Of a stretch of DNA of 38,485 nucleotides, positions 15,213 through 38,255 are shown one piece after another (within the stretch, counting starts at the first letter, position 1; every line of letters starts with the position of its first letter). The notes beneath the pieces are model-generated. The model was not told where the DNA came from. It saw only the letters and a program-made list of their open reading frames with translations, and searched no databases. The DNA lies in assembly GCA_009861545.1 (NCBI GenBank), contig VXME01000096.1:4791-43275 (forward strand), written 5' to 3'. Origin of the DNA: Acidobacteriota bacterium (GTDB lineage: Bacteria; Acidobacteriota; Vicinamibacteria; Vicinamibacterales; UBA8438). The position numbers and the translations under genes are program-made.

Positions 15213-15696
15213 CAGACCACTACGCCAGCGATGTCAGCAGGCGGGTGCAGCAAGCGAACCATCGAACAGTTATACCCCAGCGCCTCAGCGCCTTCAACGC
15301 ACCAGGCAGCACCGTGCACGGCGCGATCCTGTCCGGGCCGGCGCGCCGCCCGTCAGATCATCGGGCGACTCAACTCCTGAAGCCCCTCGAACCCGCCGAG
15401 AACGCACGGTGGCTGTCAGTGGCCAGGACTGTAGGTACCGCCTCCGCTCCTAGCGCGACCAGATCCTGTCGGCGGCGACTGGGATCCAGGTCGCCGCAGG
15501 CGGGGAGATCGCATCCCATTAGTCCGGGCGTCTCGATCTCGCCCATTACTGTGAAGTCGCGCCACAGCGGCGCTCATCGGGCCAAACCATGGCCCAGCCG
15601 CTGGCGTGGGCAAGCAATTCGCCCGTCAAATTCCTACTCGGGTGCGAGTCTCATGGATCCCGCTCGTGGAGGACGACCCGCAACCAAGGAGATATC
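15213..15696. other. Intergenic region, no gene seen
   Basis: These 484 bases between the divergent kinase and LRV genes have short overlapping open frames on both strands, without ribosome sites or protein-like composition. The only clear signal is the ribosome site at the right end. It may hold divergent promoters, but none could be assigned confidently. Confidence 0.4.
15686..15691 (+). promoter_or_regulatory. Ribosome binding site AAGGAG setting the LRV start
   Basis: A consensus AAGGAG lies five bases before the GTG at 15697. It is the reason this start is preferred to the in-frame ATG 108 bases upstream, which has no such site. Confidence 0.75.
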
Positions 15697-16497
15697 GTGA
15701 TCACCCCTACGCAAGAGCGAAAGATGGTGCGCATGGCGCGCTCCACCCTTCTTCCCGCTGACGTGATTAGCGCGAGGGTGGGCTGTGACGTCGAAGAGGT
15801 GCATTCTCGGCTAGGAGCCAAGGCGATCCGTCGGGGCGTCGGTACGGTATGGATCCTCAAGGCCAAGAGTTCTGACATAGCTGTCCGACGAAGCGCGGCC
15901 AGCGCCCCTTCCTGCCCGTCGGACATCCTGCGCCGGCTTGCTCGGGACGGGTCATCCCGGGTGCGCTCAGCCGTCGCCAGTAACGACTCCTGTCCGTCGG
16001 ACGCCCTGCGCCGGCTTGCTCGGGATCGGTCAATGTGGGTGCGCTCAGCCGTCGCCAGTAACCAATCCTGTCCGCTGGGAGTGCTCCGTTTGCTCGTTCG
16101 TGACCGGTTCGCTCTGGTGCGTCTTCGGGTGGCGGAGCGCAAGGACTGCCCCGGCGACTTCTGGTTGAAGCTCGCTCGGGATCGATCTCCGGAGGTGCGC
16201 TGCTGGGTCGCACACAACCCTTTCTGCCCGCGGGATGTCCTTCACTGGCTTGCTGATGATCCGGACCGGAGGGTGCGCCGAAGCCTTGCACGCGTCCGGT
16301 GGTGCACACCGGCTGTCCTGAGCCGGCTTATGCGTGACCGGGACCGTTTCGTGCGGAGCGAAGCAGCGCGCAACCCGTCCTGCCCCCTGGATCTCGTGCG
16401 TCAGCTCGCTGACGATCCCGAGCCCGTGGTGAGACGCGCTGCGGTGTCCAGGCTTCGCCGATCCGGGATGCCGGCGAGGGGTCTCCCGGCGAGCTGA
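15697..16497 (+). CDS. LRV-repeat protein with a cysteine in every repeat
   Basis: The product has 266 residues from the GTG at 15697. A basic N-terminal region of about 60 residues (with one Cys in VGCDVEE) is followed by seven consecutive 26-residue units and a partial one. Each unit follows VR..VA.N.SCP.D.LR.LARD, which matches the leucine-rich repeat variant (LRV) family of alpha/3-10 solenoids. Each of the seven units has Cys directly before the Pro or Thr (SCPSD, DCPGD, FCPRD, WCTPA and so on). The related repeats of the operon at 19.4-26.0 kb have Ser, Thr or Val there. The founding LRV protein from Azotobacter carries an iron-sulfur cluster, but in a separate domain, so a metal role here is only inference. 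It is probably a scaffold for protein or nucleic-acid binding, and it sits at the left edge of the putative defence island. Confidence 0.8.
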   Translation: MITPTQERKMVRMARSTLLPADVISARVGCDVEEVHSRLGAKAIRRGVGTVWILKAKSSDIAVRRSAASAPSCPSDILRRLARDGSSRVRSAVASNDSCPSDALRRLARDRSMWVRSAVASNQSCPLGVLRLLVRDRFALVRLRVAERKDCPGDFWLKLARDRSPEVRCWVAHNPFCPRDVLHWLADDPDRRVRRSLARVRWCTPAVLSRLMRDRDRFVRSEAARNPSCPLDLVRQLADDPEPVVRRAAVSRLRRSGMPARGLPAS

Positions 16498-16582
16498 CAC
16501 AGCAGGGGGCTGGAGGGGGAGCAGGCACGATGAGGGGCGCCCGTCCGGGGCAGCATGCATGCACCGACTGAGTCACCGAGGC

Positions 16583-16696
16583 TTAGGTGCTCTGTGCCCC
16601 CCAAGGAGTCCTCGCGAGCATCCGTTCCAGCCGGGCGATGACCGGAACTCCCATCCGACCGGATGGGGCGAGCCCCGATTCCCAGCGCGAGATCCC
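16583..16696 (-). pseudogene. Remnant of an XRE-family regulator (3' end only)
   Basis: Read on the minus strand, the frame encodes GISRWESGLAPSGRM followed by PVIARLERML and a short tail to TAA at 16583. This matches the recognition-helix end of an XRE helix-turn-helix protein and closely resembles the end of the intact gene at 18932-19270 (PVIARLERVL then a WG tail). The first half of the domain is missing; upstream the frame runs into the start of the nuclease gene. Two extra Gs near the end shift the last codons relative to the intact copy. It is a truncated relic. Confidence 0.6.
16587..16646. repeat. Left copy of imperfect direct repeat (XRE 3' end)
   Basis: It shares a 15-base perfect match (GGTGCTCTGTGCCCC) and then a strongly similar tract containing TCCAGCCGGGCGAT with 18938-18993. 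The two copies bracket the nuclease pair in the same orientation. Confidence 0.7.
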
Positions 16697-16747
16697 GGGA
16701 CACGCGGCCTGCCCACAAGCTCCGATGCCGGGATAGTGTCGGCCACC

Positions 16748-17320
16748 GTGGCTGGGGAAGAAGCGCAAGAGGCTGGCCGAGAAGGCGTGCAGCGGGCGAA
16801 GCGATGGCTCGAGGGCACAGGACGCGTCAATGTGTACTGGACAGTGTACGAGCACGCCTCGATGCTGGGCGTGCCGCGCCCCGGGGGCGGGAAGCGGTCA
16901 TTTGACATGAGCGGCGTCATTCTCGGTGGTGATCTGGATGGCCACCAACTATATGCAGAGGTCAAGAGACACTCGAATCCCCGCAACCAAGCCAAGGCGT
17001 ACGGTGACTACTTGGCGAATTGCTACTGCAAGATGCTTCGAGATCCGGATAGGCCGTATCAGTTCATGTGGATCACGTGGCATCCTTTCAGCCAGACGAA
17101 GTGGACCAGGTTGTGTGAATGGGACGAGGTGCGAGATGAAGTCTCTAGACGGCAGACTGAATGGCTCGGCTCGAAGATCTTGGTCGATGACGACCTATGC
17201 AGGCTTGTCGCGGACCGACTCTGGCTCATTGTTCTGTCGGACAAGCAGGAACAACTCAGAATGAGCGATGAGATGTTGGCCGAGGTGCGCAAGACTGCGA
17301 CGATAAGGACAAAGCGATGA
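16748..17320 (+). CDS. PD-(D/E)xK nuclease-like protein
   Basis: The product has 190 residues from the GTG at 16748; an in-frame GTG at 16736 is a possible alternative, and neither has a good ribosome site. The N-terminal helix (GREGVQRAKRWLE) and the sequence up to residue 80 match the restriction-endonuclease fold. Asp53 follows a beta-strand (SFDMSGVIL), and Glu71-x-Lys73 sits in the next strand (LYAEVKRHSN), giving a D-x17-E-x-K core. This predicts a Mg-dependent DNA- or RNA-cleaving enzyme. The rest is Trp-rich and not recognised. The stop overlaps the next ATG (ATGA), so the two proteins are made together. Base composition is visibly less GC-rich than in the neighbours, and a broken regulator lies just upstream, both suggesting horizontal acquisition. 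The most likely role is the nuclease effector of a small defence system; the nuclease fold is well supported, the role is inferred. Confidence 0.7.
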   Translation: MAGEEAQEAGREGVQRAKRWLEGTGRVNVYWTVYEHASMLGVPRPGGGKRSFDMSGVILGGDLDGHQLYAEVKRHSNPRNQAKAYGDYLANCYCKMLRDPDRPYQFMWITWHPFSQTKWTRLCEWDEVRDEVSRRQTEWLGSKILVDDDLCRLVADRLWLIVLSDKQEQLRMSDEMLAEVRKTATIRTKR

Positions 17321-18720
17321 GCACTGGTCAAGCGGCGATTGATGAAGCGCTCACGCATGGCGATCCGCAGGATGTCACAGAATCGGTGAAGATGATTGTC
17401 GCTCAGGAGATAGCGGCCGTCAATTCCGAGCTGAGGATACAGCGTACTGAGTACTTCAATCACTCCTACATCCCTGATCTGGTCACTTGGTGGGGACCGA
17501 ATGATGCTGATCACCGGGAGGTGTTTCTGCGATTCGATTCTGCGGACCGAAGCCTGGCGCTCGATATCGAGAGGCTGAGTCGAGATCATCCGATGTTCTT
17601 CTCGTTGCGGCCTCATCGAGTGGAAGAGTCATCGCCTGAGGTAGCAGAGGCTCTGTCGCAGCATCGTCGAGTCATGGTCACGGAGGCCAGTGCTCTCAAG
17701 GAACTGTCAGGATCTGAGCCCGGCTCCTTTGAGTCCCTGGTGTCAACGTCCGTTGTAAGGGCCGGGCGCGGACTCGTGGACAAAGAGCAGGCGACTAGAG
17801 CCCGCATGGATACACAGGGCAGCATCAAGGCGGCACTCCTCGGTGATGAGCCTCGAACGCGGGCCGCTGTAGCGACCACGAGAGCGATCCTGGCGGACGC
17901 AGCTTCTCAAGAGATTGGCAAGTATTTGCAGATGCTATGGCTCGCCGGGGGAGGTGAACTTGATGCGTATCCCGGAGACAGGGATGTCGGCTTAGTTGCA
18001 GGGGCGCAAGATGTGGAGCGGCTCGTTCGTCTGGTATTGAGCAGCGAAGTTGTCGATAGCGTTGGATTCTGGCGTCGGCTGGGCTCAATGGTCACTCTCG
18101 AAGTGCTCGAGAACTTGGAGTCAGTTGAGTTGCTCCCGAATCTGCAACACCTTGTTAATGCCAACGTCTCGCGACTGTTCGTCTCGTACGCAGCGGTGTC
18201 GGAGCACGAACCGCGGCTAACCAGCGTGCAAAGTCCTTTCAGTTGGCTCGTGGTTGACTCGCGGTTGTGCCTTGACGGGCCGGAGTGGACGATCGCGTTC
18301 GCCGACGATGGCCGCCACTTTAGCGGAGTCAGCAAGGACCGTCAGTTGCCAACGATCGAAGAAGTCAACCGCCGTGCCTGGGAGTTCCTGATCGAGGCGG
18401 TGGAACTCGACGATGAGAATCTCTTGGTTACGGTGGAGCCGAAGGACCCCGATGGGCTACGATTCCACGGTGCCATCGGCGGGTTGTCCGGAGTAAGCGG
18501 GCTTCCGACGCTAGTGCGGAGTCTCACAGTCCGGAATGGTGTGGCTATAGAGGTAGAATATGATCGTCTCATCGCCAACACTCGGCAGCATAAGATCCCA
18601 CTGCCCCAACTTGCCGACGTGGCTGTCGCACTAATGACAGACAGTGACGAGATCGAGGGACTCAAGTTGAGGAGACTTCTTGGGCTTGGGTCGGACGGGG
18701 GCCTCCTCTTTGGAGAGTAG
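17317..18720 (+). CDS. Unknown 467-residue partner of the PD-(D/E)xK nuclease
   Basis: The protein is not recognised. Its ATG overlaps the nuclease stop by four bases, and a TAAGGA ribosome site lies seven bases upstream inside the nuclease gene, so translation is coupled. It is soluble, without signal peptide or membrane helix. Visible parts: an N-terminal helical section (1-60), a mixed section with YIPDLVTWWGPNDADHREVFLRFD (about 50-75) that looks like a beta-sheet core, a helical middle (about 130-290), and an Asp/Glu-rich alpha/beta C-terminal part. No Walker, HNH, PD-(D/E)xK or helicase motif was found. Codon use is less GC-rich than in neighbouring genes, as for the nuclease. It probably senses, regulates or targets the nuclease. 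This rests only on the tight linkage. Confidence 0.7.
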   Translation: MSTGQAAIDEALTHGDPQDVTESVKMIVAQEIAAVNSELRIQRTEYFNHSYIPDLVTWWGPNDADHREVFLRFDSADRSLALDIERLSRDHPMFFSLRPHRVEESSPEVAEALSQHRRVMVTEASALKELSGSEPGSFESLVSTSVVRAGRGLVDKEQATRARMDTQGSIKAALLGDEPRTRAAVATTRAILADAASQEIGKYLQMLWLAGGGELDAYPGDRDVGLVAGAQDVERLVRLVLSSEVVDSVGFWRRLGSMVTLEVLENLESVELLPNLQHLVNANVSRLFVSYAAVSEHEPRLTSVQSPFSWLVVDSRLCLDGPEWTIAFADDGRHFSGVSKDRQLPTIEEVNRRAWEFLIEAVELDDENLLVTVEPKDPDGLRFHGAIGGLSGVSGLPTLVRSLTVRNGVAIEVEYDRLIANTRQHKIPLPQLADVAVALMTDSDEIEGLKLRRLLGLGSDGGLLFGE

Positions 18721-19325: not shown

Positions 19326-19362
19326 TGTCACACCCGCTCAGTATGATCCGCATATGCAGAAA
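19326..19362 (+). promoter_or_regulatory. Promoter/operator block, leaderless type (copy B)
   Basis: The 37-base block reads TGTCACACCC, a six-base spacer, TATGAT (19342-19347), CCG, then CATATGCAGAAA. TATGAT is a good -10 box, and the ATG at 19354 follows after six bases, so the transcript would begin at or next to the start codon. The sequence around CATATG is an imperfect palindrome that could bind the divergent XRE protein. A closely similar block of the same length is at 34129-34165. Confidence 0.6.
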
Positions 19363-19413
19363 GTCGGGCAGCGTTCGGCCTCCGGCAACCGTAGCTGGAG
19401 GTTCTGTCGGTGA
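19354..19413 (+). CDS. Leaderless 19-codon mini-ORF (putative leader peptide)
   Basis: ATG 19354 to TGA 19411-19413 encodes 19 residues (MQKVGQRSASGNRSWRFCR). It begins six bases after a TATGAT box, and its stop overlaps the GTG start of the LRV gene (GTGA). It also spans that gene's GGAGG ribosome site (19397-19401). Translation of the mini-ORF would therefore carry ribosomes over the LRV start. It could be a coupling or attenuation leader; the basic, Trp/Arg-ending peptide has no known function. Confidence 0.45.
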   Translation: MQKVGQRSASGNRSWRFCR

Positions 19414-21128
19414 GCGGACGGCGGCGTGGTCGGGTGGTGTCTGTGGGAGCGGTGCGCGGTGTGCTGGCGCATCGCGGAGCCGGCTGGGTGGTGGACAACG
19501 ACTCCGAAGTACGGCTGCTGGAGGCACTGCGGGGCGAGCGCGGCGCGCGGGAGCGGTTGTGGGCGCTGGCGGCGGTGCTTGATGAGGGACTCGTCGGGGC
19601 TGGGGATCTGAGGTGGCTGAACGGGCGTCTGTCGGCCATCACGGCGCTGGAGCCGCCCGAGGAGGTGTGGCAGGTCCGGGTGGCTGGAGAGTTGATGGCG
19701 GCGGTGGCGTATGTGTGCGTGTGCGTGAACGACGAGCCGTTGTCGCGCTGGCTGGGGTATGCGCTGGCGGCGCGGCTGGACGGAAACCTGGTGCGGGGCT
19801 TGTTGCCTGGCCCTGGCTGGGCGTCGTGGGAAGCGCCGCATCGGCGTCGCTGGGAGACGTTCAATCGGGACGTGCATTGGATCTCTGAGTTGCCGGAGTC
19901 GTTCTGGTCACGGCTGGCGGCCCACAGCGACAAGAGGCTCCGAGCTGTGGCGGTTGCGTCTGATCCTACGACTCGGCCCAAGGTGCTCGAGAGTCTGATC
20001 ACTAAGCACTACGGGGTGCCTGAGGTGTTGGATCTTGTTGCTGCCAACCCCAGGACGCCGACTCGGGCTCTGCGTCGTCTGTTGCGGCGTTCGTGGGGCC
20101 GGGGGCGGCCCGACCTGCGGGTGGCGCAGAACCGCAGCGCGACTGTGGGGCTGCTGCGCGAGTTGGCCAACAGCGACGACTGGGAGTTGCGCTATGTGGC
20201 CGCGTGGCATCCGAAGGCGCCGGTGTCGGCGCTGCGGCGCCTCGCGGGTGACGAGTCGCGCGAGGTGCGGAGTGCGGTGGCTCAGTCCGTGTCGGTGCCG
20301 GCGGTGGTGCTGGAGGTGCTGGCGTCGGATGGAGATGTGTGGGTGCGCAGGAATGTGGCGTCGAACCCATTGTCGCCGCCAGCGGTGCTGAAGGCGCTGT
20401 TGGGGGATCGGCGAGCGGTGGTGCGGGCCGCGGCCGCTCGCAACGAGAACACGCCGACGGAGGCGGTTGCTGCTCGGTCTGGTGATCGAGCGATCAGGGT
20501 GCGCAAAGAGGTGGCGGCGCGCGTGGTTGGGGCCGAGGTGCTCGCGGTTCTTGCAGCAGATCCCAAGTGGGTGGTGAGACAGGCGGTCGCGTACAACGTT
20601 CAGACCCCGCCGGAGGTCTTGGACCGCCTCGCCGCCGACGACCACGAAGAGGTTCGCGCCAGTGTCGCGTACAACACCAGCGCGACACCGGCTGCGCTTG
20701 AGGCGCTGGCGCGAGACGAGTTCGTGTGGACCAGGGTCCATGTGGCCGTCAACAAGTCCGCTCCGGTCGATCTGGTGATGATGCTGGCCACAGACGCGGA
20801 CCTCCATGCGATGGGCGACGCCGCCCAGAACCCCGCGCTGTCGCCGGCGCAACTCAACACGCTGGCGACCGGTGAGTCCTTGGAGGCCCGAGCCGGGGTC
20901 GCGTTGAACACCAGCGCGCCTGAGGATCTGCTGGCGGCGCTGGCCGAGGACTTTGACGTCGATGTGCGGCGCTGCGTGTGCGAGAACGACCGTGTGCCGC
21001 TGGATGTGGTGCGCGCCCTGAGGTCCGATCGGGACTATCGGGTGCGCGCCGCGGCCGCGGCCGCTTGTGAGCGGCGCGGCGACCACACCGCGGACGATGC
21101 CGCATCGAAGCGAACCATCCACACCTAG
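19410..21128 (+). CDS. LRV-repeat scaffold protein, first gene of MoxR/VWA operon
   Basis: The product has 572 residues. GTG 19410 has a GGAGG site eight bases upstream. The N-terminal part (about 1-110) is helical and unrecognised. A cap module follows (about 113-190) with WL..AL.ARLDGNL and LPESFWSRL. About fifteen units of roughly 26 residues then run to the end (VR..VA.N...P..VL..LA.D), the LRV/HEAT-like solenoid pattern. The same cap followed by LRV repeats occurs at the C-terminal end of the DprA-like protein of this operon. LRV solenoids usually bind proteins or nucleic acids. An 18-base gap separates it from the MoxR gene. It is probably the recognition or scaffold subunit of the system. 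Confidence 0.82.
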   Translation: MSGRRRGRVVSVGAVRGVLAHRGAGWVVDNDSEVRLLEALRGERGARERLWALAAVLDEGLVGAGDLRWLNGRLSAITALEPPEEVWQVRVAGELMAAVAYVCVCVNDEPLSRWLGYALAARLDGNLVRGLLPGPGWASWEAPHRRRWETFNRDVHWISELPESFWSRLAAHSDKRLRAVAVASDPTTRPKVLESLITKHYGVPEVLDLVAANPRTPTRALRRLLRRSWGRGRPDLRVAQNRSATVGLLRELANSDDWELRYVAAWHPKAPVSALRRLAGDESREVRSAVAQSVSVPAVVLEVLASDGDVWVRRNVASNPLSPPAVLKALLGDRRAVVRAAAARNENTPTEAVAARSGDRAIRVRKEVAARVVGAEVLAVLAADPKWVVRQAVAYNVQTPPEVLDRLAADDHEEVRASVAYNTSATPAALEALARDEFVWTRVHVAVNKSAPVDLVMMLATDADLHAMGDAAQNPALSPAQLNTLATGESLEARAGVALNTSAPEDLLAALAEDFDVDVRRCVCENDRVPLDVVRALRSDRDYRVRAAAAAACERRGDHTADDAASKRTIHT

Positions 21129-21146
21129 CCAATCAGGGAGGTACCC

Positions 21147-22292
21147 GTGACCACTACCCAACATCGCAACAGCGTCCCGACGGCGGGCGCGACCCAAGCC
21201 GACACTCTCGCCGCCATGCAGATCCTTTTGGCTGCGGGCATACCGGTGCTGTTGTGGGGCGACCCCGGCACCGGCAAGACCCACACCATCGAGGCGTTCG
21301 CACGGCAGGCCGGGTGGCGCACAGTGTCGGTGATCGCCTCGATCCATGACCCCACCGACTTCGCCGGTCTGCCGATGCGCACCGCAGAGGGCGTGGTGTT
21401 CGAGCCGCCTGCGTGGGCTCGGCGCACAGCCGGGTGCGACGGGGCGTCGCTGGTGTTCTTCGACGAGGTCAACACCGCCACCCCCGCGACCCAGAACGCG
21501 CTCATGAGAGTGGTGCTCGAGGGCCGCGTCGGCGACCTCGAACTCGGAGACAGCGTGCGGTTCGCAGCCGCGGCGAACCCTCCGTCGCAGAACAGCGCCG
21601 CGTGGGATCTCAGCGCTCCGTTGGCCAACCGGTTCGCGCACCTGTCATGGCCGGTGAGCTTCGAGGACTGGAAGGCCGGCTACCTCGGCGGCTGGCCCGA
21701 CCCCGACCCCCTCGACATCGATCCCGGTGCGATCGACCCCTACACCAACGAGATGGTCAGGTTGTTGCAGACGTCGTTCTTGGCCACGCGGCCAGCTCTG
21801 GTGTGCGAAGTGCCCGACAACGGCGCCGAACTGCGGGGCTGGCCCTCGCCGCGATCATGGGAGCGCCTCGCGGACTGTATGTCTATAGCCGACACCGCCG
21901 ACGTGTCAGGCGAAGTGCGGCTGCTGGTTGCGTCCGCGCTGGTGGGAGAGGGCGCCGCGGCCGAGTACCTGGCGTACCTGCGGAACCTGGACCTGCCCGA
22001 CCCCAAGGACCTGCTCACCTATCCCGCCAAGTTCGGCGAACTGCAACGCACCGACCAGCAACTCGCGGCCCTCGACGCGGTCGTCGCCGCCGCGGCGGCG
22101 GACCCCAAGTCCTGGAGCGACGCGTTCCGAGTGTGCATAGTCGCCGCCGGCTGCGGAGCCCCCGATGTGGCCGCGTCGGCCGCGATGCGCCTCGCTGAGA
22201 TCAAGCCCACCTCTGTGAAGCTGCCCGCGGGACATGAGGTCTTCGCACAGATCCTCACCGACGCCGGCCTGCTGGAGGACCCCGACACATGA
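21147..22292 (+). CDS. MoxR-type AAA+ ATPase
   Basis: The product has 381 residues. GTG 21147 has a GGGAGG site five bases upstream. AAA+ motifs: Walker A GDPGTGKT (38-45), Walker B LVFFDEVN (102-109), sensor-1 Asn144 (AAANPP), and an arginine-finger-like NRF (161-163). The region between Walker A and B (HDPTDFAGLP and VVFEPPAWARR) is typical of the MoxR/midasin-like branch. MoxR ATPases form rings and act as chaperones or remodelling motors, usually with a VWA-domain protein, and here the next gene encodes one. It should hydrolyse ATP in the cytoplasm and drive assembly or activation of the other operon products. All catalytic residues are present. Confidence 0.93.
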   Translation: MTTTQHRNSVPTAGATQADTLAAMQILLAAGIPVLLWGDPGTGKTHTIEAFARQAGWRTVSVIASIHDPTDFAGLPMRTAEGVVFEPPAWARRTAGCDGASLVFFDEVNTATPATQNALMRVVLEGRVGDLELGDSVRFAAAANPPSQNSAAWDLSAPLANRFAHLSWPVSFEDWKAGYLGGWPDPDPLDIDPGAIDPYTNEMVRLLQTSFLATRPALVCEVPDNGAELRGWPSPRSWERLADCMSIADTADVSGEVRLLVASALVGEGAAAEYLAYLRNLDLPDPKDLLTYPAKFGELQRTDQQLAALDAVVAAAAADPKSWSDAFRVCIVAAGCGAPDVAASAAMRLAEIKPTSVKLPAGHEVFAQILTDAGLLEDPDT

Positions 22293-22335
22293 CCCCCGCG
22301 CGCCGACCAGACCCCCACAGTGTGAAGGAGCCACG

Positions 22336-23700
22336 ATGACCTTCGACTCCGACCGCGCCGGTCGCCACCATCGCAGACAGCGCAGATTCGGTGATGTCCA
22401 CGGACACGGCGACACCCACAGCCGAGGCTCCGATCCCGTCGGGGGCGAAGGAGCCGACACCGACGACGAGCCCGAGATTTCACAGCCCCCGCCGCCGCGG
22501 CCCAAACAGTTGAGCCCCTTGGCGCAGCGGCGCCTGCAAGCGGCGCGGCTGTGGATCGCCGCCAACCGCCCCTACTACTCCAAAGCCGTCTTCTCCTGCC
22601 CGGTCATCCCCACCGCCCCACCAGGCCGAGTCGGCATCGATGACCGGTGGCGCATCTACGCCAACTCCGAGTTCCTGGAGTCGCTCACCGTCAAAGAGGC
22701 AGCCGCAGAGTTGATACACGTGCTCAACCATGCTCTGCGCGACCACGCGCAGCGGGCCCGCAACTCAAGCGTGGACGCCCTGACGGTCCTGGAGTGGAAC
22801 GCGGCCGCGGACTGCGAGATCAACGACGACCTCTATGAGGACGACCTGATCGAAGACGACGGCTGGGTGTTCCCCGATGACCTCGGCATGAGCGAGTTCA
22901 TGGCCGCCGAGCACTATTACCGGCACCTGCTCGACAACGGTATACCGGTGCCGGTCCACATCGAATGCGGATCGGGATGCCACAGCCACGCCGTCCCATA
23001 CGAACTCGGCACCGACAGCGACGCGCTCAGCGACTTGGACCGCGCGCTGCTCAAACGCGCCGTCGCCGCCGCGGTCGCCGACCACCAGAAAGCCCACGGC
23101 CCCGGAAACGTCCCAGAAGGGCTCGCCCGGTGGGCCCAACAGACATTGCACCCCAAAGTCGACTGGCGCCAACAGCTCGCGGCGGCGCTGCGATCGAGCG
23201 TGCATCACAAGACCGGGATGGCCGACTACACCTGGCAGCGGCCCTCGCGCCGCCAACAGCCACAAGACCTAGTGCTGCGCCCGGCCATGACCCGCCCTGT
23301 GCCGTCCATCGTCGTGGTGGTGGACACCTCCGGATCCATGTCACAGCAGGAACTGGACAGAGCACTAACGGAGATCAGCGCCATCATCGCCACCGTCGTT
23401 CCCGGCGACAGCGTCAGAGTCCTGGCGGTGGACTCCGACGTCCACACCGACCAGCACATCCACAACGCCAAGCTGATCCGGCTCGCAGGCGCAGGCGGCA
23501 CCAACATGGCCGCTGGCATCGAGGCAGCCGCCGAGACCAAACCCGACGCCATCGTCGTCATCACCGACGGGTGGACCCCCTGGCCCCCGACCAGGCCCGC
23601 AGGCGCCCGATGCGTCATCGCCGCCCTGACTGACGACTGCAGGATGCGCGATGTCCCCGACTGGATCCAGACCGTCGACATGAGCGGAGACCTGATCTGA
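22336..23700 (+). CDS. DUF2201-like metallopeptidase-fold plus VWA domain protein
   Basis: The product has 454 residues. ATG 22336 is set by a GAAGGAG site five bases upstream, 43 bases after the MoxR stop. A His/Arg/Gly-rich, disordered N terminus is followed by a domain (about 60-200) with ELIHVLNHALRDHAQR. This resembles the putative metallopeptidase half of DUF2201 proteins, with His128 and His132 on one helix and downstream acidic residues (NAAADCEINDDL). The C-terminal half (about 320-450) is a von Willebrand A domain with an intact MIDAS start DTSGSMS (330-336), Thr389 (GGTN) and a final TDG (410-412). Such proteins are the standard partner of MoxR ATPases. The role is probably metal-dependent binding of a client loaded by the ATPase. 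Its stop overlaps the next ATG by one base (TGATG). Confidence 0.9.
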   Translation: MTFDSDRAGRHHRRQRRFGDVHGHGDTHSRGSDPVGGEGADTDDEPEISQPPPPRPKQLSPLAQRRLQAARLWIAANRPYYSKAVFSCPVIPTAPPGRVGIDDRWRIYANSEFLESLTVKEAAAELIHVLNHALRDHAQRARNSSVDALTVLEWNAAADCEINDDLYEDDLIEDDGWVFPDDLGMSEFMAAEHYYRHLLDNGIPVPVHIECGSGCHSHAVPYELGTDSDALSDLDRALLKRAVAAAVADHQKAHGPGNVPEGLARWAQQTLHPKVDWRQQLAAALRSSVHHKTGMADYTWQRPSRRQQPQDLVLRPAMTRPVPSIVVVVDTSGSMSQQELDRALTEISAIIATVVPGDSVRVLAVDSDVHTDQHIHNAKLIRLAGAGGTNMAAGIEAAAETKPDAIVVITDGWTPWPPTRPAGARCVIAALTDDCRMRDVPDWIQTVDMSGDLI

Positions 23701-26033
23701 TGCGCCCCACCCTCAGCGAAATGGTCGAGGCCGGTCTGACCGACGAGCGGCTGCAGTTCCTCGCGCTGTTGCGGCGGGTCCATCAACACGACTGGGGACT
23801 CGTGGCTCGCACCGCTCTGACGGCGGGCTCGATGGCACGGCTGCTGGAGGACGGCCTGTGGGACACTCCCGGCGCGGTGAGGTCGCCGCTGGGCCCGCTC
23901 GATGCCCTGCCGATGGGCTGGAGCGGCACCCAGGCCGCGGTGCAGAAGGAGTTAGAGCTTGCAGAGGAGGCGGGTTCGCGGTTCGTGACGGTGTTCGACG
24001 ACCAGTTCCCGCTCAACCTGCGCCGGGCGTCGCGCACCTACCCGTTCCTGTCCTATGACGGCACCCTCGACGCCGACCGCGACGCTCACAGTGTCTATGT
24101 GGCGTCCGGTCGGCGCGCACCGTCCGCGGAGGACTTGAGGCGGGCCCGGATCATCGGGCGAGGCCTGGCCCGCAGGGGCGTCACCGTGATCGGCGACGTT
24201 CTCTCAGAGATCGACCGAACTGTGCTACAGACAGCGTTGGACGTTGGGGGACGCGCCGTTGCTGCGCTGTTGTACTCGCTGGGCCCGGTCCGCTACGGCT
24301 ACAGGGGACAGCGGCAGTTGTGCGAGGACATCATCGCCTCGGGGGGTGCCGTGGTGTGTGCGAACTGGCCCTCGGACAGGCCGAACCAGTTCACCTTCCG
24401 CCCCAGCAACGGCCTCAAGATGACAATCGCCTCCGGGGCCGTCGTGGTGGAGCGGCCCCCGCCGTATGGTGCGCGCCGCGAGGCCCGCGGAGCCGTCAGG
24501 GAGCGAAGGCCCGTGTTCTTCGTAGGGCCGGTAACTGTTGAGGAGATCGATGTCGGAGACGACCCGTGGGACACCGCCGAGCTGGCCCCTATCTCCTACG
24601 TCGTCTACAACGGCGCGCAGATCGCTCGACGCCTCCGCAGCTTCTATGCCACAACCGAAGCCGGTGCGGCCAAGCACAGCCCGATGCCGTGGCAAGTCGA
24701 GCGACTGCGGCAACGCGCCGCGGGCCTAGTCACGGGCGTGGCGCCCCGAACCCGGTTCCAGCAGACGCGGTCGCTCCTGCGCGCTCGCTGCACGCCGCCC
24801 GCCTGGCTGCGCGAGTGGCTGGCAGAGCCAGCACAGAGACTGACCCGCCCCAGCAGCTCCGCCACCGAGACAGCCGTCGAGGCCCTACGTCTCCAGGAGG
24901 CGAGGAGAAGGAGCGCGGCCGAAGACGAGCGGTACAGGTTCACGTGGCGAGGCGAGACCGTGGAGCTCAAGGCGCGGCGCCGAGGTACAGGCCCCAACCC
25001 TCTCCAAGACCCGGTCATCAACGAGGGCTACTGGGTCCTGGCCCACGGCGAGCGTCCACGGCGCCGACGATCACCGAAGCGGCGCCTGTTCTCGGCGCGG
25101 CGGCCGCTCGCAGAGGCCGACCCCGACCGCACCGAATGGCTCGAGATGCTGCTGGCGCCGCTTAATGCGGGAATGATCGAGGTCGAAGAACTCCCACAAA
25201 TCGACCGTGACCTGCAAGCGATAGCAGACGCAGACAAGGTCTGCTTCGCTGATGTCTCCTCGAACAACGCCGCCGCAGTCGCCATGGCTTGTGCGCACTG
25301 GACCGACCCCAAGGGCGCCGAATGGCTTCTATGGGCTCTGTCGGCGCGCCTCGAGGACAACCTCGACCCCGAGGTGGGACGCGGCGAGGGCCCGGGCTTG
25401 CTGGCATGGTCCTACTACTACAAGCTCGACAACAGAGGCTTCGGCCGCGACGCCAGCTGGACGACGCAGATGCCGCCCGCATTCTGGCGCCGGCTCACCA
25501 ACCACCCCGACCCCAGCCTGCGCCGAGCCGTCATCGCGAGCGACCCTCAAGCCCTCGGCCGCGACCTGGCGCGACTCGTCGACGAATCCGGAATCTCCGG
25601 GGAGATCGCCGACATGATCGCATCCAACCCCCGAACCCCACCTGCGGCGCAGCTCCAGCTGGTGACACGCAGTCACCCCTCGCGCACAGCCGGCAGGATG
25701 GGCCAGAACCGGCGCACCTCAAGACGCCTCCTAGCCCGACTGGCTCGATCGCCCGAGTGGATGGTGAGAGACGTGGTCGCGGTCCACCGGCGAGCCCCGC
25801 GTCGGGCGCTTACCCGGCTGGCCAAAGACTGCAAAGCGATCAGGCAGGCGACTGCAGGCAACCCCCGAACCCCGAAGCGAACGCTGCGCGGCCTCGCCGC
25901 CGACCCAGAACCGCACGTAAGGATCGCAGCCGCCAGCAACGAAGCAATCCCCGCAGACGTACTGGCAACTCTTCTACAGGACGGCCATGAACGAGTGCGC
26001 GAGCATGCCGCCAACAACCCGAGAGCGAGCTGA
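23700..26033 (+). CDS. DprA-like (SLOG/Rossmann) protein fused to LRV repeats
   Basis: The product has 777 residues. A helical N terminus (about 1-60) is followed by a DprA/Smf-like Rossmann domain (about 85-315): SVYVASGRRAPS (131-142, matching the nucleotide-binding SR.PS turn of DprA), RGVTVIGDVLSEID, GGRAVAALL, LCEDIIASGGAVV, FRPSNGLKMTIASGAVVVE and RPVFFVGP. A linker region with an Arg-rich, acidic-flanked segment (about 320-540) comes next. Then follows the cap module also found in the first operon protein (about 542-615: WLLWALSARLEDNL, PPAFWRRL) and LRV repeats to the end. Standard DprA is about 280-380 residues, binds single-stranded DNA and loads RecA. The DprA-like/SLOG superfamily also includes nucleotide-signal sensors of defence systems. 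Fusion to LRV repeats in a MoxR/VWA operon argues for a conflict-system sensor rather than a transformation protein. The fold is well supported, the role is inferred. Confidence 0.85.
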   Translation: MRPTLSEMVEAGLTDERLQFLALLRRVHQHDWGLVARTALTAGSMARLLEDGLWDTPGAVRSPLGPLDALPMGWSGTQAAVQKELELAEEAGSRFVTVFDDQFPLNLRRASRTYPFLSYDGTLDADRDAHSVYVASGRRAPSAEDLRRARIIGRGLARRGVTVIGDVLSEIDRTVLQTALDVGGRAVAALLYSLGPVRYGYRGQRQLCEDIIASGGAVVCANWPSDRPNQFTFRPSNGLKMTIASGAVVVERPPPYGARREARGAVRERRPVFFVGPVTVEEIDVGDDPWDTAELAPISYVVYNGAQIARRLRSFYATTEAGAAKHSPMPWQVERLRQRAAGLVTGVAPRTRFQQTRSLLRARCTPPAWLREWLAEPAQRLTRPSSSATETAVEALRLQEARRRSAAEDERYRFTWRGETVELKARRRGTGPNPLQDPVINEGYWVLAHGERPRRRRSPKRRLFSARRPLAEADPDRTEWLEMLLAPLNAGMIEVEELPQIDRDLQAIADADKVCFADVSSNNAAAVAMACAHWTDPKGAEWLLWALSARLEDNLDPEVGRGEGPGLLAWSYYYKLDNRGFGRDASWTTQMPPAFWRRLTNHPDPSLRRAVIASDPQALGRDLARLVDESGISGEIADMIASNPRTPPAAQLQLVTRSHPSRTAGRMGQNRRTSRRLLARLARSPEWMVRDVVAVHRRAPRRALTRLAKDCKAIRQATAGNPRTPKRTLRGLAADPEPHVRIAAASNEAIPADVLATLLQDGHERVREHAANNPRAS

Positions 26034-31871: not shown

Positions 31872-33242
31872 ATGGAGTGTCGTCGCCGCCTGTTGATGTC
31901 GGTGCTGGCGGTGTTCGTGGTGCTGGCAGCGGCCTGCGCTGCGGAGGAGGCCGACACCGGACAGGTTGGTGATACCGCCCCCGAGGCGGTCGCAGAGCAG
32001 GTGGAGCCGGAGGCACCGGAGCCAGACACGGCCGCCACCACGGCGGAGCCGGAACCGGAGTCCGCTCCGACGACTAGCGAGGTCGAGCCTGAACCTGAGT
32101 CCGCTCCCGAGGTGGAACCGATCACTACCACCAGCGAGGCGGGGGAGCAGGAATCAGACCCTGCTCCCACTATCAGCGCCACCGCTGAGGCTGCTGCGAC
32201 GAGCACCGAGCCGGAACCAGAACCCAACGAACAGGCCGCGCCTGAACCAGAATCCGACTTCGACGCGATCCTCGAACCCGAGGCAGAGCCCGAGAGCGAC
32301 TCGACGATGGTTCCGGAACCGGAACCGGAGCCAGAGCCGGAGCCCGAGCCCGAACCGGCGCCAGAGCCGGAACCCGAGCCGACTGAGCCCTCATCTGGGG
32401 CGGCCGCGGTGCTCGCTCTGCTGGACGCTCTCACGGTCGCCACGGAGCACACGAGCGGCTATGACCGCGACCTGTTCAAGCACTGGACTGACGAAGACGA
32501 AGACGGATGTGACACCCGCCGAGAAGTGCTGCTAGCGGAGGCAGTGGTCGTACCGGCGCAAGGCAGCCGATGCTCGCTGTCAGAAGGAGAGTGGATCAGC
32601 CGCTACGACGGTCTGACCGAACGGGGCAACGGCAGAGGCTTCGATGTCGACCACCTAGTGCCGCTCGCGGAAGCCTGGGAATCCGGCGCTCACGGCTGGT
32701 CATCGGACCGCCGCGAACAGTACGCCAACGACCTCGGCTACGAGCATTCCCTCATTGCTGTGTCGGCGCGGTCCAACCGCTCCAAGGGTGCCCAAGACCC
32801 TGCGACGTGGATGCCGCCGGATGTTGGGCAGCACTGCTGGTATGTGGCGGCTTGGGTGCATGTAAAGACCCGCTGGTCGCTGACGGTTAACACGGCCGAG
32901 GTCAACGCCGTACGCGCTGTGCTCTCAGATTGTTCCAATGCTGACCTGAGCATCGGGCTTCCGGCTCCCGTCGTCGAAGAGCCTCCCGCGGCCACCACCA
33001 CGACAACAACTACTACCGCACCGCCCACCACCACGACAACGACTACTACCGCACCGCCCACCACCACGACGCAGGCACAGGACTGCCACCCCGCCTACAC
33101 ACCCTGCCTGCCCAACCTCCCCGGCGACGCCCTGAACTGCGGCGACCTCACATCGGACCAGAAACCGGTCACCGTCAACGAAATCGGTGTCGACCCCTAC
33201 CGGCTGGACCGCGACGGCGACGGACGCGGCTGTACCAGTTGA
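31872..33242 (+). CDS. Secreted HNH nuclease lipoprotein (DUF1524) with Excalibur tail
   Basis: The product has 456 residues. ATG 31872 has GGGAGG five bases upstream. The lipobox VLAAAC (Cys22) predicts a lipoprotein. An acidic, Glu/Pro-rich linker (about 30-175), partly pure Glu-Pro repeats, follows. The nuclease domain (about 180-345) has [13 protein letters not shown] (His261), [22 protein letters not shown] and DPATWMPP, then [16 protein letters not shown]. This is the DUF1524/HNH pattern of secreted nucleases, in which the metal is held by the ββα fold. A Thr-rich linker with two copies of an [11 protein letters not shown] unit leads to an Excalibur domain (about 403-456: DCHPAYTPC to [14 protein letters not shown]) with a DxDxDG calcium loop. 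It is probably an extracellular nuclease tethered to the membrane. It stands alone. Confidence 0.88.
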
Positions 33243-34128: not shown

Positions 34129-34165
34129 TGTCACACCCCTTGCTATACTTCTGTATATGCAGAAA
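34129..34165 (+). promoter_or_regulatory. Promoter/operator block, leaderless type (copy A)
   Basis: TGTCACACCC, a five-base spacer, TATACT (34144-34149), TCTG, then TATATGCAGAAA. It has the same length and order as the block at 19326-19362. TATACT is a good -10 box. The bases GGTGT-C-ACACC (34127-34137) form a perfect dyad, and TTCTGTATATGCAGAA (34149-34164) an almost perfect 16-base palindrome, so two operator-like sites lie in 38 bases. The ATG at 34157 follows the -10 box by seven bases. Confidence 0.6.
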
Positions 34166-34507
34166 TCAGCCGGGCGGCTGGTCTCCCAATCCAGGACGAT
34201 CCATGCCGACGGAAGCCCCGTCTCCACAACGGCGGCGCGTCACATATTCGACGTCCGCATGTCTGCTTCGGCCAGCCGTTCGCCGGAGTCGGGTAGGCCC
34301 GCGCGGCTCCTCTCGGCCGGGCTGACCTGGACTTTCGTTCAGACAGGCGCTGCATATCAGGCTTCTGACCGTAGTTCGTCCACGACTTCGGTTAAAGGTC
34401 GTGGTGCATCATGGTGCAGACGCGCATCGAGGCGCCCCAGTCCAGCAAGACAGCCGGGCGCCTCGATGTGTCTCATCCGCATCGCCCAAGGGCGAGGAAG
34501 ACGTGAG
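34166..34507 (+). promoter_or_regulatory. Structured leader before the recombinase operon
   Basis: The 350 bases between the promoter and the likely start at 34508 have Ser/Arg-rich, non-protein-like translation although the frame is open. They contain CCACGAC/GTCGTGG (34380-34386 with 34398-34404) and a perfect 13-pair stem CATCGAGGCGCCC/GGGCGCCTCGATG (34425-34437 with 34456-34468). This is best read as a structured 5' leader that may attenuate expression. Confidence 0.5.
34494..34500 (+). promoter_or_regulatory. Ribosome binding site GAGGAAG before ATG 34508
   Basis: GAGGAAG lies seven bases before ATG 34508. It favours this start over the leaderless ATG at 34157, whose first 117 codons look non-coding. 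Confidence 0.55.
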
Positions 34508-35650
34508 ATGCACCGTAGCAGAACTTTTCTACCGGCATCAAAAGAACGGCCCGGTATTGACGCCCCGGACCCGATGCCGAGCTCGGCCGAGTTAGCAGTT
34601 GGCCGTCGGACGCGGCTCCCGGTTGGGCTGAGGCGCGCACTAGAGGCTCAGGCACGCAACCAAGTAGATCTGTGTACGGCTTGGACAGAGGTCGCGGCCG
34701 AGGTCCTGGCAGGGATCGCCGACACCTACCTGCTCACAGAGCGCCCTCTGAGTCGGTTCGCAAGCATGTTGATCTCGATGTTCGCCCATTTCGAGCGGCG
34801 TGGGGTGAAGCGGCTGCGCGACGTGACCGGGGATCTCACTCTGGAGTGGTGCTGGTCGCCGGTGCAGGGGCCGGACGGGTCGGCCCAAGAGCCCGCTCGC
34901 AACTTTGCCCGCGACCGCCAGTGGGTTGCTCGGGCCGCGTTCAAGGTGGCCGCACAGCTCGGAGCGCAACTGGATCCCAATGTCGCGGCGGGCGCAGGGA
35001 TCAAGCGGGGCGACCCGGATGTGGCGGCCCGGCCCCTCACGGACCAAGAGCTGGACAGGCTGTGCGCATGTGTCGATGCCGGAACCGCGGCGTCTAGGCG
35101 GGCCCTTCTCGTAGCCATGTACATGGCGGGCGGCTCCGCTGCTGAGGCGGCCGCCGTGCGCACGAGAGACATCGACCTAGACGCGGGGACCGTCACTTTC
35201 TTGGGGGAGCGTGCGCGGGTGTGCGCCCTTGATGAGTGGAGCGCTCGAGCAATCGCCCGGTATCTGCGAGCCAATCCCACGGCACCCGACGAGCGTCTGT
35301 GCGTCAAGGCGGACACGCCGCGCGATGCGGCGGTGGACTCGGTCTCCATCCGGATGTGGAAAGTCATCAAGGAAGCTGGGTTCAGTAGCCGCAGCGGCAT
35401 CTCGCCGCGCTCAGTTCGGCTCGCCGCGGCACGGCAGGTCCTCGAGAGCGAGGGCATCGTTGCAGCGGCCCGGTTCTTGGGATCGCCGTCGCTGGACAAC
35501 ACGGCCCACGCCTTGGGCCATGATTGGCAGTTCCAGCACAGCACCGCATGTCTGTCGGCGCCCGACTCTTCGGCGCGGTCAAGCGGTGCCGCTGGGTCGG
35601 CTGGCTGCGCCTCCAATGAGGGCCTGCGTGTCATCGAGGATCCACGATGA
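34508..35650 (+). CDS. Tyrosine-recombinase-fold protein lacking catalytic residues (paralog 1)
   Basis: The product has 380 residues. An N-terminal SAM-like core-binding domain (about 60-110: ADTYLLTERPLSRFASMLIS) is followed by an integrase catalytic-type domain (RPLTDQELDRLCACV, DIDLDAGTVTF, VRLAAARQVLES, then FLGSPSLDNTAHALG). By alignment with XerC/D, the first catalytic Arg (GLRxSE) is replaced (GGSAAEA), the beta-hairpin Lys is absent, HxxRH is RSVRL (only Arg kept), the LLGH His is Ser, and the nucleophile Tyr is Ala. It should not cut DNA but may still bind it. Its stop overlaps the next ATG (ATGA). The paralog downstream has the same losses, so the change is old and selected rather than random decay. 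Confidence 0.75.
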   Translation: MHRSRTFLPASKERPGIDAPDPMPSSAELAVGRRTRLPVGLRRALEAQARNQVDLCTAWTEVAAEVLAGIADTYLLTERPLSRFASMLISMFAHFERRGVKRLRDVTGDLTLEWCWSPVQGPDGSAQEPARNFARDRQWVARAAFKVAAQLGAQLDPNVAAGAGIKRGDPDVAARPLTDQELDRLCACVDAGTAASRRALLVAMYMAGGSAAEAAAVRTRDIDLDAGTVTFLGERARVCALDEWSARAIARYLRANPTAPDERLCVKADTPRDAAVDSVSIRMWKVIKEAGFSSRSGISPRSVRLAAARQVLESEGIVAAARFLGSPSLDNTAHALGHDWQFQHSTACLSAPDSSARSSGAAGSAGCASNEGLRVIEDPR

Positions 35651-36615
35651 CAGCGGGTCAACGGCTGTCGGCGGGCTGGCAGGAGCTGGTGCTGGCGCGG
35701 GTCGCCGACACCTACCGAACCAGCGAGCGCACCTACAAGAAGGTTGCCGCCAACGTGATGTGGATGTTCGCGTACTTCAGCAAGCGCGGCATCGAGGAAT
35801 GGTCCGACGTGACCCCGGACATCACCCTCGAGTGGTGCTGGGCCGGGGCCAGCGGCCCCTACGGGTCGTGTGGCGACCCGTCCGCAAGCACCGCGCGCAA
35901 CCGACAGTGGACGGCACGGCTCGTGTTCGAAGTGGTCGCAGGGCTCGGCGCGCAGATCGACCCGAACACCGCGGCGGGCGAGAAGATCAGGCGGGACGAC
36001 CCGGATGCATCGGCCCGGCCCCTCACAGAGGACGAACTGCGCCGGATCTGCGCGCACGCCGACCCCGGTGTCGCGCCGTCGAAGCGTTCGGCAGTGGTTG
36101 CGCTGGTGCGTTCGGGGGCTTCCGCCGCGGAGGCGGCCGAGGTGCGCGTACGAGACATCGACTTGGAAGCGGGCACGGTCGCATTCTCGGGCGCGAGTGC
36201 GCGGGTGTGCGCTCTGGACGAATGGAGCGCCCAGACCATCGCCCGGTACCTGCGGGCCAACCCTCCCACGTCGCCCGTACAGCGGCTCTGCGTCACTGCC
36301 CGCACATCCGGTGAGCGGGCGACGGAGTCGGTGAACGCCCAACTTTGGAAGGTCATCAGCGAGGCCGGGTTCGCGGACCGCGCTGACATCTCCGGCCGCT
36401 CACTGCGCCTCACCGCGGCCCGGCGGGTGCTCGAGAGTGACGGAATCGAGGCCGCGGCGCGGCTCCTGGGCTCGCCGTCGCTGGACAACACCGCCAAGGC
36501 TCTCGGCTACTCCTGGCAGGAGCACGCGACCAGCAAGCCGCTCGGCTTCGGCCGTCGGGGCCCGACCATTGCTCAGGGCGTGGTCGATGAGGCCGCCGGG
36601 GTCTGCAGGGGATAG
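35647..36615 (+). CDS. Tyrosine-recombinase-fold protein lacking catalytic residues (paralog 2)
   Basis: The product has 322 residues. The ATG overlaps the previous stop, so translation is coupled. The core-binding domain (VADTYRTSERTYKKVAANVM) and catalytic-type domain (RPLTEDELRRICAH, DIDLEAGTVAF, LRLTAARRVLES, LLGSPSLDNTAKALG) are clearly paralogous to the first gene. The same substitutions occur: Arg to Ser (GASAAEA), no Lys, RSLRL for HxxRH, Ser for His, and Ala for Tyr. A nearby Tyr (LGYSWQ) is four residues off the nucleophile position and is His in the paralog, so it is unlikely to be catalytic. The pair recalls the tandem recombinases of Tn554- and RIT-type elements, but those are active. 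The transposase-like gene follows two bases after the stop. Confidence 0.8.
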   Translation: MTAGQRLSAGWQELVLARVADTYRTSERTYKKVAANVMWMFAYFSKRGIEEWSDVTPDITLEWCWAGASGPYGSCGDPSASTARNRQWTARLVFEVVAGLGAQIDPNTAAGEKIRRDDPDASARPLTEDELRRICAHADPGVAPSKRSAVVALVRSGASAAEAAEVRVRDIDLEAGTVAFSGASARVCALDEWSAQTIARYLRANPPTSPVQRLCVTARTSGERATESVNAQLWKVISEAGFADRADISGRSLRLTAARRVLESDGIEAAARLLGSPSLDNTAKALGYSWQEHATSKPLGFGRRGPTIAQGVVDEAAGVCRG

Positions 36616-36617
36616 GG

Positions 36618-38255
36618 ATGGCCAAGCCCCGCGAGAGCGAGCGTGTGCCGTTCAGTGACGGCAGGCCCATTGAGGCCGAAGTGCTCTACGGGTTGCTGGG
36701 CGACTCCGAAGACGTGGAGCGCGTCGACGGGCCGAGGCCGGCGGACTCACCCGGCGGCGGCGGAATCCGCCACATCAACCCGGTCCGAGATGAGGACTCG
36801 GATCTGCAGCGGCTCGAGGACGTGATGGTCTCGCCGTTCGTTTGGGAGCTGATGGACAATCTCGAAGAGTTCCACAACAGCCGCCGACCGCCGGGCGGGC
36901 CCGGCCGCAAGCGCGAGTACAAGCTGGCCGACATCCAGGTGATCGAGACGGGCACGCACTTCTACGGCAACTCCGACAGCGCCTGGCGCAACCTCAAGGA
37001 TCCCAACACCTGGGAGCGGCTGTGCCGCGCGGTCGAGAGGGCGTTCCCCAACGACGAGACTCGGCGCCTGTCCAAGAAGCCCCCGAGCCGGCACCAGATC
37101 TATCGCGCGCGGCGCGACTACTTCAGCGGCGACGCGCTCAGGGAATTCAGGCGCCAGTACCGCCGCATTGCCCTCGAGGCAGCGAGGGACATCGGCATCT
37201 TCGATCCCAAGGCGGGCAGTTGGACCCATCCCGACAAGACACAGTGCATCGTCGGCGACAGTTCCTGGACGCCCAGCGCCACCAGGCACCATCGCAAGGA
37301 CTCGACTGACCCCAAGACCGGCAAGACCCGCAAGTTCGATCCCCACGGCGACTATCACCACACCAGCGACGACAAGCCGACCAAGGTCCCCGGCCGCGAC
37401 GTGGTGATGCTGTCGTGCCGCACCCAACACAGCAACGAGCGCATCATCATCGACTCTGAATTCATGCCCCCCAAGAAGAGTCTGAAACGCAAGAACCGCA
37501 ACGACGCCGACTTCGCCGTCGACCTCCTTGAGGACCTCCTCGCAGAGAACGGCGACCTGCTCTGCGGCGGACCCGGTGGCCGCTCCGGCGGGCTGCGAGG
37601 CTTCATCTACGACATGGCGATGGACTCAGAGGCCAATGACAGAGTGCTCAGCAACAAGGTGCTGCCAATAGACAAAGTCCGCAGGCTCAAGGGCGGCCGG
37701 TACCGCGGCGGCAACCTCGGACCCCACTCGTTCAAGACCCGCAGCGGCAGCACCGAACACCACGACGTCAAGACCTGCAACGGCTCGACATGGGTGCTGC
37801 TGCCAGACAGCCGCGGCACAGAGATTGCGGTGCCGCTGCGCCGCAAGCACCTCTACTGGGGCGACGCGACGCGGCAGGGGTACACCGCCTACTGCGAAGT
37901 CGAGATTCCGAACGAACCCGCAGTTCCTCGAGGGCTGCGGGGAGCCACCACCACCGTGCGGCTCAACAGCACCCCCGAGGAGATCCACAACAATCCCCAC
38001 ACCCGCCGCACCCGATCGCTGCGCCCCATACCCGAGGCCGACCCCGACTTCGAGATCCACGGAAGCCGCGAGGACATCGAGTCCACCTTCTCGAACCTCA
38101 AGTACTGCCTCCGCGGCAGGCTCAGGTCCATCCACGAGGACTTCAACCGCTTCAACATCCTCTCGTACCAGATCCTGCGACTGTCCCGCACTCTGAGCGC
38201 GTATCACAAGCGCACGGCCACCACAGCGCCGCAAGCGATCCCAATAGCCGCCTAG
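36618..38255 (+). CDS. DDE-transposase-like protein
   Basis: The product has 545 residues. ATG 36618 has a GGGGATAGGG tract just upstream and lies two bases after the previous gene. A candidate catalytic triad fits a DDE (RNase H-fold) transposase: Asp214 (CIVGDSSW), Asp332 (FIYDMAMDS) and Glu488 (EDIESTFSNLK), followed by the helical C-terminal end LSYQILRLSRTLSAYH usual in IS transposases. The N-terminal 200 residues are helical with a basic HTH-like region (about 165-195: YRARRDYFSGDALREFRRQY). The length is at the high end for such proteins. Together with the two recombinase-fold genes it forms a tight three-gene operon ending 180 bases before a tRNA gene. No terminal inverted repeats were found. 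The family is not firmly identified. Confidence 0.75.
   Translation: MAKPRESERVPFSDGRPIEAEVLYGLLGDSEDVERVDGPRPADSPGGGGIRHINPVRDEDSDLQRLEDVMVSPFVWELMDNLEEFHNSRRPPGGPGRKREYKLADIQVIETGTHFYGNSDSAWRNLKDPNTWERLCRAVERAFPNDETRRLSKKPPSRHQIYRARRDYFSGDALREFRRQYRRIALEAARDIGIFDPKAGSWTHPDKTQCIVGDSSWTPSATRHHRKDSTDPKTGKTRKFDPHGDYHHTSDDKPTKVPGRDVVMLSCRTQHSNERIIIDSEFMPPKKSLKRKNRNDADFAVDLLEDLLAENGDLLCGGPGGRSGGLRGFIYDMAMDSEANDRVLSNKVLPIDKVRRLKGGRYRGGNLGPHSFKTRSGSTEHHDVKTCNGSTWVLLPDSRGTEIAVPLRRKHLYWGDATRQGYTAYCEVEIPNEPAVPRGLRGATTTVRLNSTPEEIHNNPHTRRTRSLRPIPEADPDFEIHGSREDIESTFSNLKYCLRGRLRSIHEDFNRFNILSYQILRLSRTLSAYHKRTATTAPQAIPIAA

Follow-up and report, generated by a model that had tools for sequence, protein, structure and literature searches.

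A patchily distributed LRV–MoxR–VWA gene unit in an Acidobacteriota genome, with a possible role in genetic conflict

Four same-strand genes (D, E, F and G; 19410–26033) in a 38,485-nucleotide stretch of an Acidobacteriota genome (contig VXME01000096.1; hereafter the window) raise the question of whether their products work as one system and, if so, what that system would be for. A first-pass annotation, made from the letters of the window, had read the four as a candidate conflict system in which a DprA-like part detects foreign DNA or a signal, LRV solenoids recognise targets and a MoxR/VWA pair activates.

Locus layout and features of the encoded proteins

The open reading frames and their junctions are exactly as first annotated: D and E are separated by 18 bases and E and F by 43 bases, F and G overlap by 1 base, and each of the four is either preceded by a ribosome-binding site or coupled to its predecessor (Table 1). 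The single promoter proposed for all four was not recovered in a sigma-70 scan, to whose consensus the promoters of this lineage need not conform. GC content at third codon positions is 0.80–0.86 in D to G and lower in the upstream genes A to C (0.72 in A). Neither B nor C has a match in Pfam, NCBIfam or PHROGs; the AlphaFold model of the C product, computed without homologues, has a pLDDT of 35, and C was not found in the five genomes searched for it (G516 and G783, described below, and three relatives). Genes A to C were rejected as members of the unit because C was not found in those five genomes and third-position GC is lower in A to C; gene A, which also encodes an LRV protein, is possibly an extra adaptor that stands outside the conserved D-E-F unit.

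Table 1 Coordinates and main features of genes in the window.
Feature	Position	Strand	Product and basis of assignment
Gene A	15589–16497	+	302 aa; third LRV protein at the locus; Pfam LRV
Genes B and C	16559–18720		253 and 467 aa
Gene D	19410–21128	+	572 aa; GTG start, GGAGG upstream; N-terminal module plus LRV solenoid
Gene E	21147–22292	+	381 aa; GTG start, GGGAGG upstream; MoxR-type AAA+ ATPase
Gene F	22336–23700	+	454 aa; ATG start, AAGGAG upstream; DUF2201_N plus VWA domain with MIDAS
Gene G	23700–26033	+	777 aa; degenerate DprA/SLOG-like domain (~89–279) fused to D-type LRV module (~420–777)
Two tyrosine recombinases	34157–35650 and 35647–36615 (overlapping)	+	Pfam/NCBIfam
Transposase-like gene	36618–38255	+	weak DDE match

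Pfam bears out the domain calls made at first reading for all four products: LRV in D, AAA+/MoxR-type in E, DUF2201 VWA in F, and DNA_processg_A plus LRV in G. E matches AAA_5, AAA_3 and AAA and, as annotated, is an intact MoxR-type ATPase that keeps both Walker A (GDPGTGKT) and Walker B (FFDEVN); its match among phage families is phrog_1297 (ATPase, 163 bits), and its matches to clamp loaders and the like in PADLOC and PHROGs were set aside as generic AAA matches. F consists of DUF2201_N (85 bits) and DUF2201 VWA (72 bits) and matches phrog_1314 (171 bits); the ‘HNH endonuclease’ label carried by that phage family is unsupported for F, in which Pfam shows DUF2201_N and VWA only.

Neither active site of F is quite as first described. 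The MIDAS, annotated as intact, reads DTSGS...GGTN...TDG: the DTSGS element is present, but N replaces the D seen at this position in 76 of 80 genome relatives. The DUF2201_N domain, annotated as a metallopeptidase, is metallopeptidase-like, but its motif is HVxxH, with the glutamate of HExxH lost. HExxH is kept in 65 of the 80 genome relatives, and in two further copies of the unit described below (L221 and L243), and is evidently not universal in the family; its loss weakens the claim to peptidase activity and leaves the MoxR–VWA pairing as it was. The lost glutamate suggests that the machine would act by remodelling rather than through peptide cutting by F.

Tandem LRV repeats exceed the Pfam cut-off in three proteins of the locus: D (75 bits against a cut-off of 21.6), A (94 bits) and G (31 bits, best repeat at residues 738–761). 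The N-terminal module of D (~200 aa) was assigned to no known family, was not found on plasmids and had no match in a remote homology search of the PDB; the sole PDB match to D is 1lrv, the solved LRV structure. Among 159 genomes of the window's order, LRV was detected in this genome only, a count that weak LRV proteins can escape since the model is a single 26-residue repeat.

G is a D-type protein with a DprA-like domain fused on. Residues 89–279 match DNA_processg_A (60 bits), although G falls below the cut-off of the NCBIfam DprA equivalog (59.8 against 191.15 bits), and residues ~420–777 align to D at 37–38%, including the non-repeat stretch that precedes the solenoid; because homology extends beyond the LRV repeats, D and G share a module. 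Matches to the LRV part of G in its own genome all lie within this locus. The AlphaFold model of G is confident for the solenoid only, from ~594 onward (block pLDDT about 60–95).

The DprA-like domain is degenerate. In G, SGRR, GDVLSEID, YGYRGQ and FRPSN replace the DprA motifs G(S/T)R, SGxAxGID, YPxxN and FPxRN, which housekeeping and plasmid (accessory) DprAs keep, exactly or as close variants; in the motif alignment the start of the DprA from the same genome is unchecked, with no effect on the motifs. That genome encodes a housekeeping-type DprA elsewhere (247 bits). Because all four signature motifs are broken in G and kept in accessory and housekeeping DprAs, the detection of foreign DNA initially proposed for this domain looks unlikely. 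The closest DprA relatives of G are plasmid proteins paired with ComF or an unnamed neighbour (30–36% over ~220–280 residues). Like accessory DprAs, among them those of plasmid dprA–comF pairs and ShosA of the Shosta system, G has a DprA/SLOG fold and it matches the PADLOC ShosA model (57 bits); unlike them it lacks the DprA motifs and a comF partner and carries a D-type LRV module in the same protein. The ShosA match involves the DprA domain only, and no phosphoribosyltransferase (ShosT) was identified among the scanned genes. On linear Streptomyces plasmids (L207 and L208), a comF-family gene lies directly after the accessory dprA.

The D–MoxR–VWA unit in other genomes

The nearest VWA relative of F in named genomes (52%) is encoded by an Acidimicrobiia MAG (G516; JAJDZO010000173.1, L122), on a contig that starts inside MoxR and is thus cut off on its upstream side. 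Searching G516 with G identified D-type proteins on two further contigs, C288 (L221) and C335 (L220), the latter carrying two D-type genes in tandem, and a profile search with the D module then led to G783, another genome of that family, which carries two copies. D, MoxR and VWA genes follow each other in the same order and on the same strand in G516 (L221, contig C288) and on the chromosome of G783 (L243; MoxR 67%, VWA 54–56%), where D is split by an inserted transposase gene. The other G783 copy (L241) is decayed: the MoxR after D lacks its C-terminal part, and no VWA gene was identified there. The D homologues directly upstream of MoxR in L221, L241 and L243 all include the N-terminal module (35–42%). 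Defined as a D with this module directly upstream of MoxR–VWA of one clade, the cassette is present in the window, L221 and L243, and in decayed form in L241. Against the window, identity is 57–67% for E, 44–56% for F and 36–42% for D, the least conserved of the three; the G783 value for D is taken from its second copy, the D beside its E and F being split.

A quick tree of 109 MoxR proteins places the four that are linked to D in one clade (SH-aLRT 100, stem 1.66), and in a tree of 43 VWA rows the cassette VWAs, L122 included, also form one clade (support 1.0). D, E and F make up a conserved three-gene unit with its own MoxR and VWA clades. Within the MoxR clade the window groups with G783 (support 85) and not with the copy from G516, though G783 and G516 belong to one family; horizontal movement or an old duplication would explain such a grouping.

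The unit is patchy. Full D modules were found in one of 248 genomes sampled from the order of G516 and in two of 51 from its family. The window's order is represented by 162 genomes, every one of which was searched, and the order of G516 by more than 248, so G516 and G783 belong to another order than the window's genome. The patchy linkage put forward as a check in the first-pass annotation is seen for D-E-F, in G516 and G783, with full D modules missing from almost all of their relatives. The D-E-F set is genuine, rarely encountered and probably mobile. The set of four genes fared differently: the fusion of a DprA-like domain to a D-type module, as in G, has no homologue in the genomes, plasmids, phages or IMG/VR data searched, and a four-gene set conserved as such was rejected, the fusion being known from one genome. 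The locus is better described as a three-gene unit accompanied by one lineage-specific fusion.

Relatives of F were identified in 71 plasmid records, mostly from Rhodococcus, Streptomyces and mycobacteria, and in 254 phage records, and are widespread in IMG/VR. MoxR adjoins the VWA gene in all 80 loci from named genomes, none of which shows LRV, DprA or a homologue of B or C in the DNA examined, which reached at most 10 kb to either side; in another set of 85 loci (L037–L121; 80 viral, 5 genomic), MoxR is present in 77 and LRV in none. Profiles of the cassette MoxR and of D matched nothing in IMG/VR, and carriage of the cassette by known viruses was rejected for that reason.

LRV and MoxR–VWA genes do occur near each other on two plasmids. 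Plasmid pMESIL01 of Allomeiothermus silvanus (L027) carries an LRV–VWA–MoxR operon, and on the Synechocystis plasmid pSYSA, a defence plasmid (PMC9978351), an LRV gene lies ~4 kb from an opposite-strand VWA–MoxR pair, near type I-D CRISPR genes. The pMESIL01 operon is like the locus studied here in combining an LRV solenoid protein, a DUF2201-type VWA and a MoxR, but has another gene order and a more distant MoxR, and the LRV proteins of both plasmids match D in the repeats only; the operon is probably an independent pairing. These cases are suggestive: the association of LRV proteins with MoxR–VWA may have arisen repeatedly. The other LRV genes examined are not linked to MoxR–VWA, and a general linkage was rejected on the ground that most are unlinked.

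Some plasmid and genomic MoxR–VWA pairs have other neighbours. In L020, L021 and L022 (Mycolicibacterium, Rhodococcus and Cellulosimicrobium plasmids), MoxR–VWA, a small protein, a ~390-aa hypothetical protein and an AAA-family ATPase (SF1-helicase-like in L022) are encoded in the same order, constituting another recurrent unit. In L122 (2988–8092), MoxR–VWA is followed by genes for a 469-aa protein and an RNase H-like/SF1 helicase protein (PADLOC MkoA/MkoC matches). On an Euzebya pacifica plasmid (L204) the pair lies beside a DNA cytosine methyltransferase gene and one annotated as DpdB, of the 7-deazaguanine DNA modification type.

Candidate function and competing readings

MoxR proteins are AAA+ rings that remodel bound proteins with the help of vWA co-factors (PMC7159879). 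By analogy E would form such a ring, using ATP to remodel proteins, and F would be its vWA co-factor, docking through the MIDAS. D may be an adaptor, the solenoid binding a substrate and handing it to E–F, and G may be a second adaptor in the window that arose when a DprA/SLOG fold, now without the ssDNA/nucleotide motifs, was joined to a D-type module, its pseudo-DprA being more likely a protein-binding or bait domain than a DNA sensor. The adaptor model draws on linkage, co-inheritance, the faster divergence of D, the tandem D genes of G516 (L220) and the D-type fusion in G, the last two of which also fit interchangeable adaptors; any weakly constrained repeat protein, however, would also be expected to diverge faster. 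That the unit is a patchy, mobile MoxR–vWA remodelling machine with swappable LRV adaptors, most likely employed in genetic conflict, is the reading we favour, and we put its chances at about even. Weighing against it are the different genes that follow the pair in L122 and the restriction of G, so far, to one genome.

Conflict, either defence or competition between mobile elements, is the leading guess for the purpose of this machine: the unit is patchily distributed, occurs in several copies and lies next to mobility genes, and a PLD–SNF2 helicase and a SoFic-like protein are encoded near one copy. It is also the weakest step. That copy, in G783 (L243, C1:446000–464500, and L244), is situated between the helicase gene (PADLOC HKD+Snf2, 119 bits) and yraN, comM and dprA, with a gene for a SoFic-type Fic protein nearby; yraN and dprA were named from their sequences, without a family search. 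Of the cassette copies other than that in the window it is the only one with defence-like neighbours, and it borders housekeeping genes as well. PADLOC has no model that covers any of D, E and F (E gives only weak AAA matches, D and F give none), which counts against the favoured reading; defence is suggested by the neighbours of this one copy, and the conflict role originally annotated is a candidate one.

In a more specific form, which we consider possible but tentative, the locus would represent a new class of conflict system, with interchangeable LRV adaptors aiming a MoxR–vWA motor at invader proteins and G as a decoy or sensor adaptor with a pseudo-DprA. Known MoxR–vWA ternary conflict systems have as third component VMAP, an inactive STAND (iSTAND), FtsH or a beta-propeller, and an effector domain C-terminal to the vWA has been reported in VMAP systems (Kaur et al. 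2020, PMC7159879). The window resembles these systems in having a MoxR–vWA core plus a third component and in its patchiness, and solenoid repeats occur there too; however, its third component is an LRV solenoid and none of the four defining components. Pfam domains of VMAP, STAND, FtsH or beta-propeller type were not detected in A to G (bpMoxR reached 20.0 bits, below its cut-off of 27), and the DUF2201 VWA of F ends at residue 448 of 454, without a C-terminal effector. Should the unit prove to serve defence, it would extend the MoxR–vWA conflict systems by a further class of third component.

The strongest rival, doubtful in our view but to be taken seriously, is that the unit serves a mobile element: MoxR and the metallopeptidase-vWA protein would help to assemble, replicate or maintain the element, with D and G as element-specific adaptors. 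Group 2.2 jumbo phages have a MoxR + metallopeptidase-vWA pair, for which a part in virion assembly has been proposed (Iyer et al. 2021, PMC7824862). The two pairs are alike in that a MoxR AAA+ gene adjoins one for a vWA protein with an N-terminal metallopeptidase domain, E and F matching phrog_1297 and phrog_1314, and such pairs are common on actinobacterial plasmids and in phages. Plasmid contexts include ssb, ParB, Rad52 and helicase-like ATPases, and recombinase genes are found in the window and beside L241. The phage and plasmid pairs examined nevertheless lack D and G, F lacks the HExxH glutamate, and no virion genes were found near the window's unit; the scan of window genes turned up none for capsid, tail, terminase or plasmid replication. 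The failure to find cassette-type MoxR in IMG/VR or the D N-terminal module on plasmids also argues against such a service. The pairing of MoxR with a metallopeptidase-vWA protein is already published (PMC7824862); no paper that describes the LRV partner was found.

A third reading, which we regard as improbable, is host protein maturation of the kind performed by CoxD/CoxE, NorQ/NorD and CbbQ/CbbO, in which the unit would insert a metal or rebuild an enzyme held by the LRV protein. Most MoxR–vWA pairs with known function serve host protein maturation, and LRV proteins on two plasmids adjoin electron-transfer-flavoprotein genes, but the cassette loci share no common metabolic partner gene, and extreme patchiness with multiple copies per genome is a poor fit. 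Chance placement of an ordinary plasmid-type MoxR–VWA pair beside LRV genes, to which the mostly unlinked LRV proteins elsewhere and the many pairs without LRV might point, is very improbable, being contradicted by the conserved D-E-F order, by D with its N-terminal module preceding MoxR in two other genomes and by the monophyly of the linked MoxRs and VWAs.

MoxR–vWA motors are widespread and their choice of substrate is mostly obscure. Under the favoured reading, that of a remodelling machine with LRV adaptors, D-E-F provides a testable adaptor model: its quickly diverging solenoid accompanies a single MoxR–vWA clade, has been duplicated in G516 and, in the window, joined to a DprA-like domain.

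Mobility genes and flanks of the window

The recombinase and transposase-like genes towards the right end of the window are the probable mobility genes of the region, and homologues of the second recombinase gene (44%) and of the transposase-like gene (29–30%) are found beside the decayed L241 copy. Just left of the window (L018:2176–3750) lies a second transposase-like paralogue (39%), so that related mobility genes may flank the region on both sides. An empty-site comparison in relatives gave no useful synteny, the matches being mainly to histidine-kinase paralogues. To the left of the recombinase genes, 31872–33242 encodes what looks like a surface or secreted nuclease: its C-terminal domain is of the HNH-type GmrSD kind, and the protein also has acidic proline-rich repeats and matches Excalibur weakly. 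A tandem repeat with a unit of ~144 bases spans the left edge of the window (L018:4222–4780, continuing into window positions 1–125).
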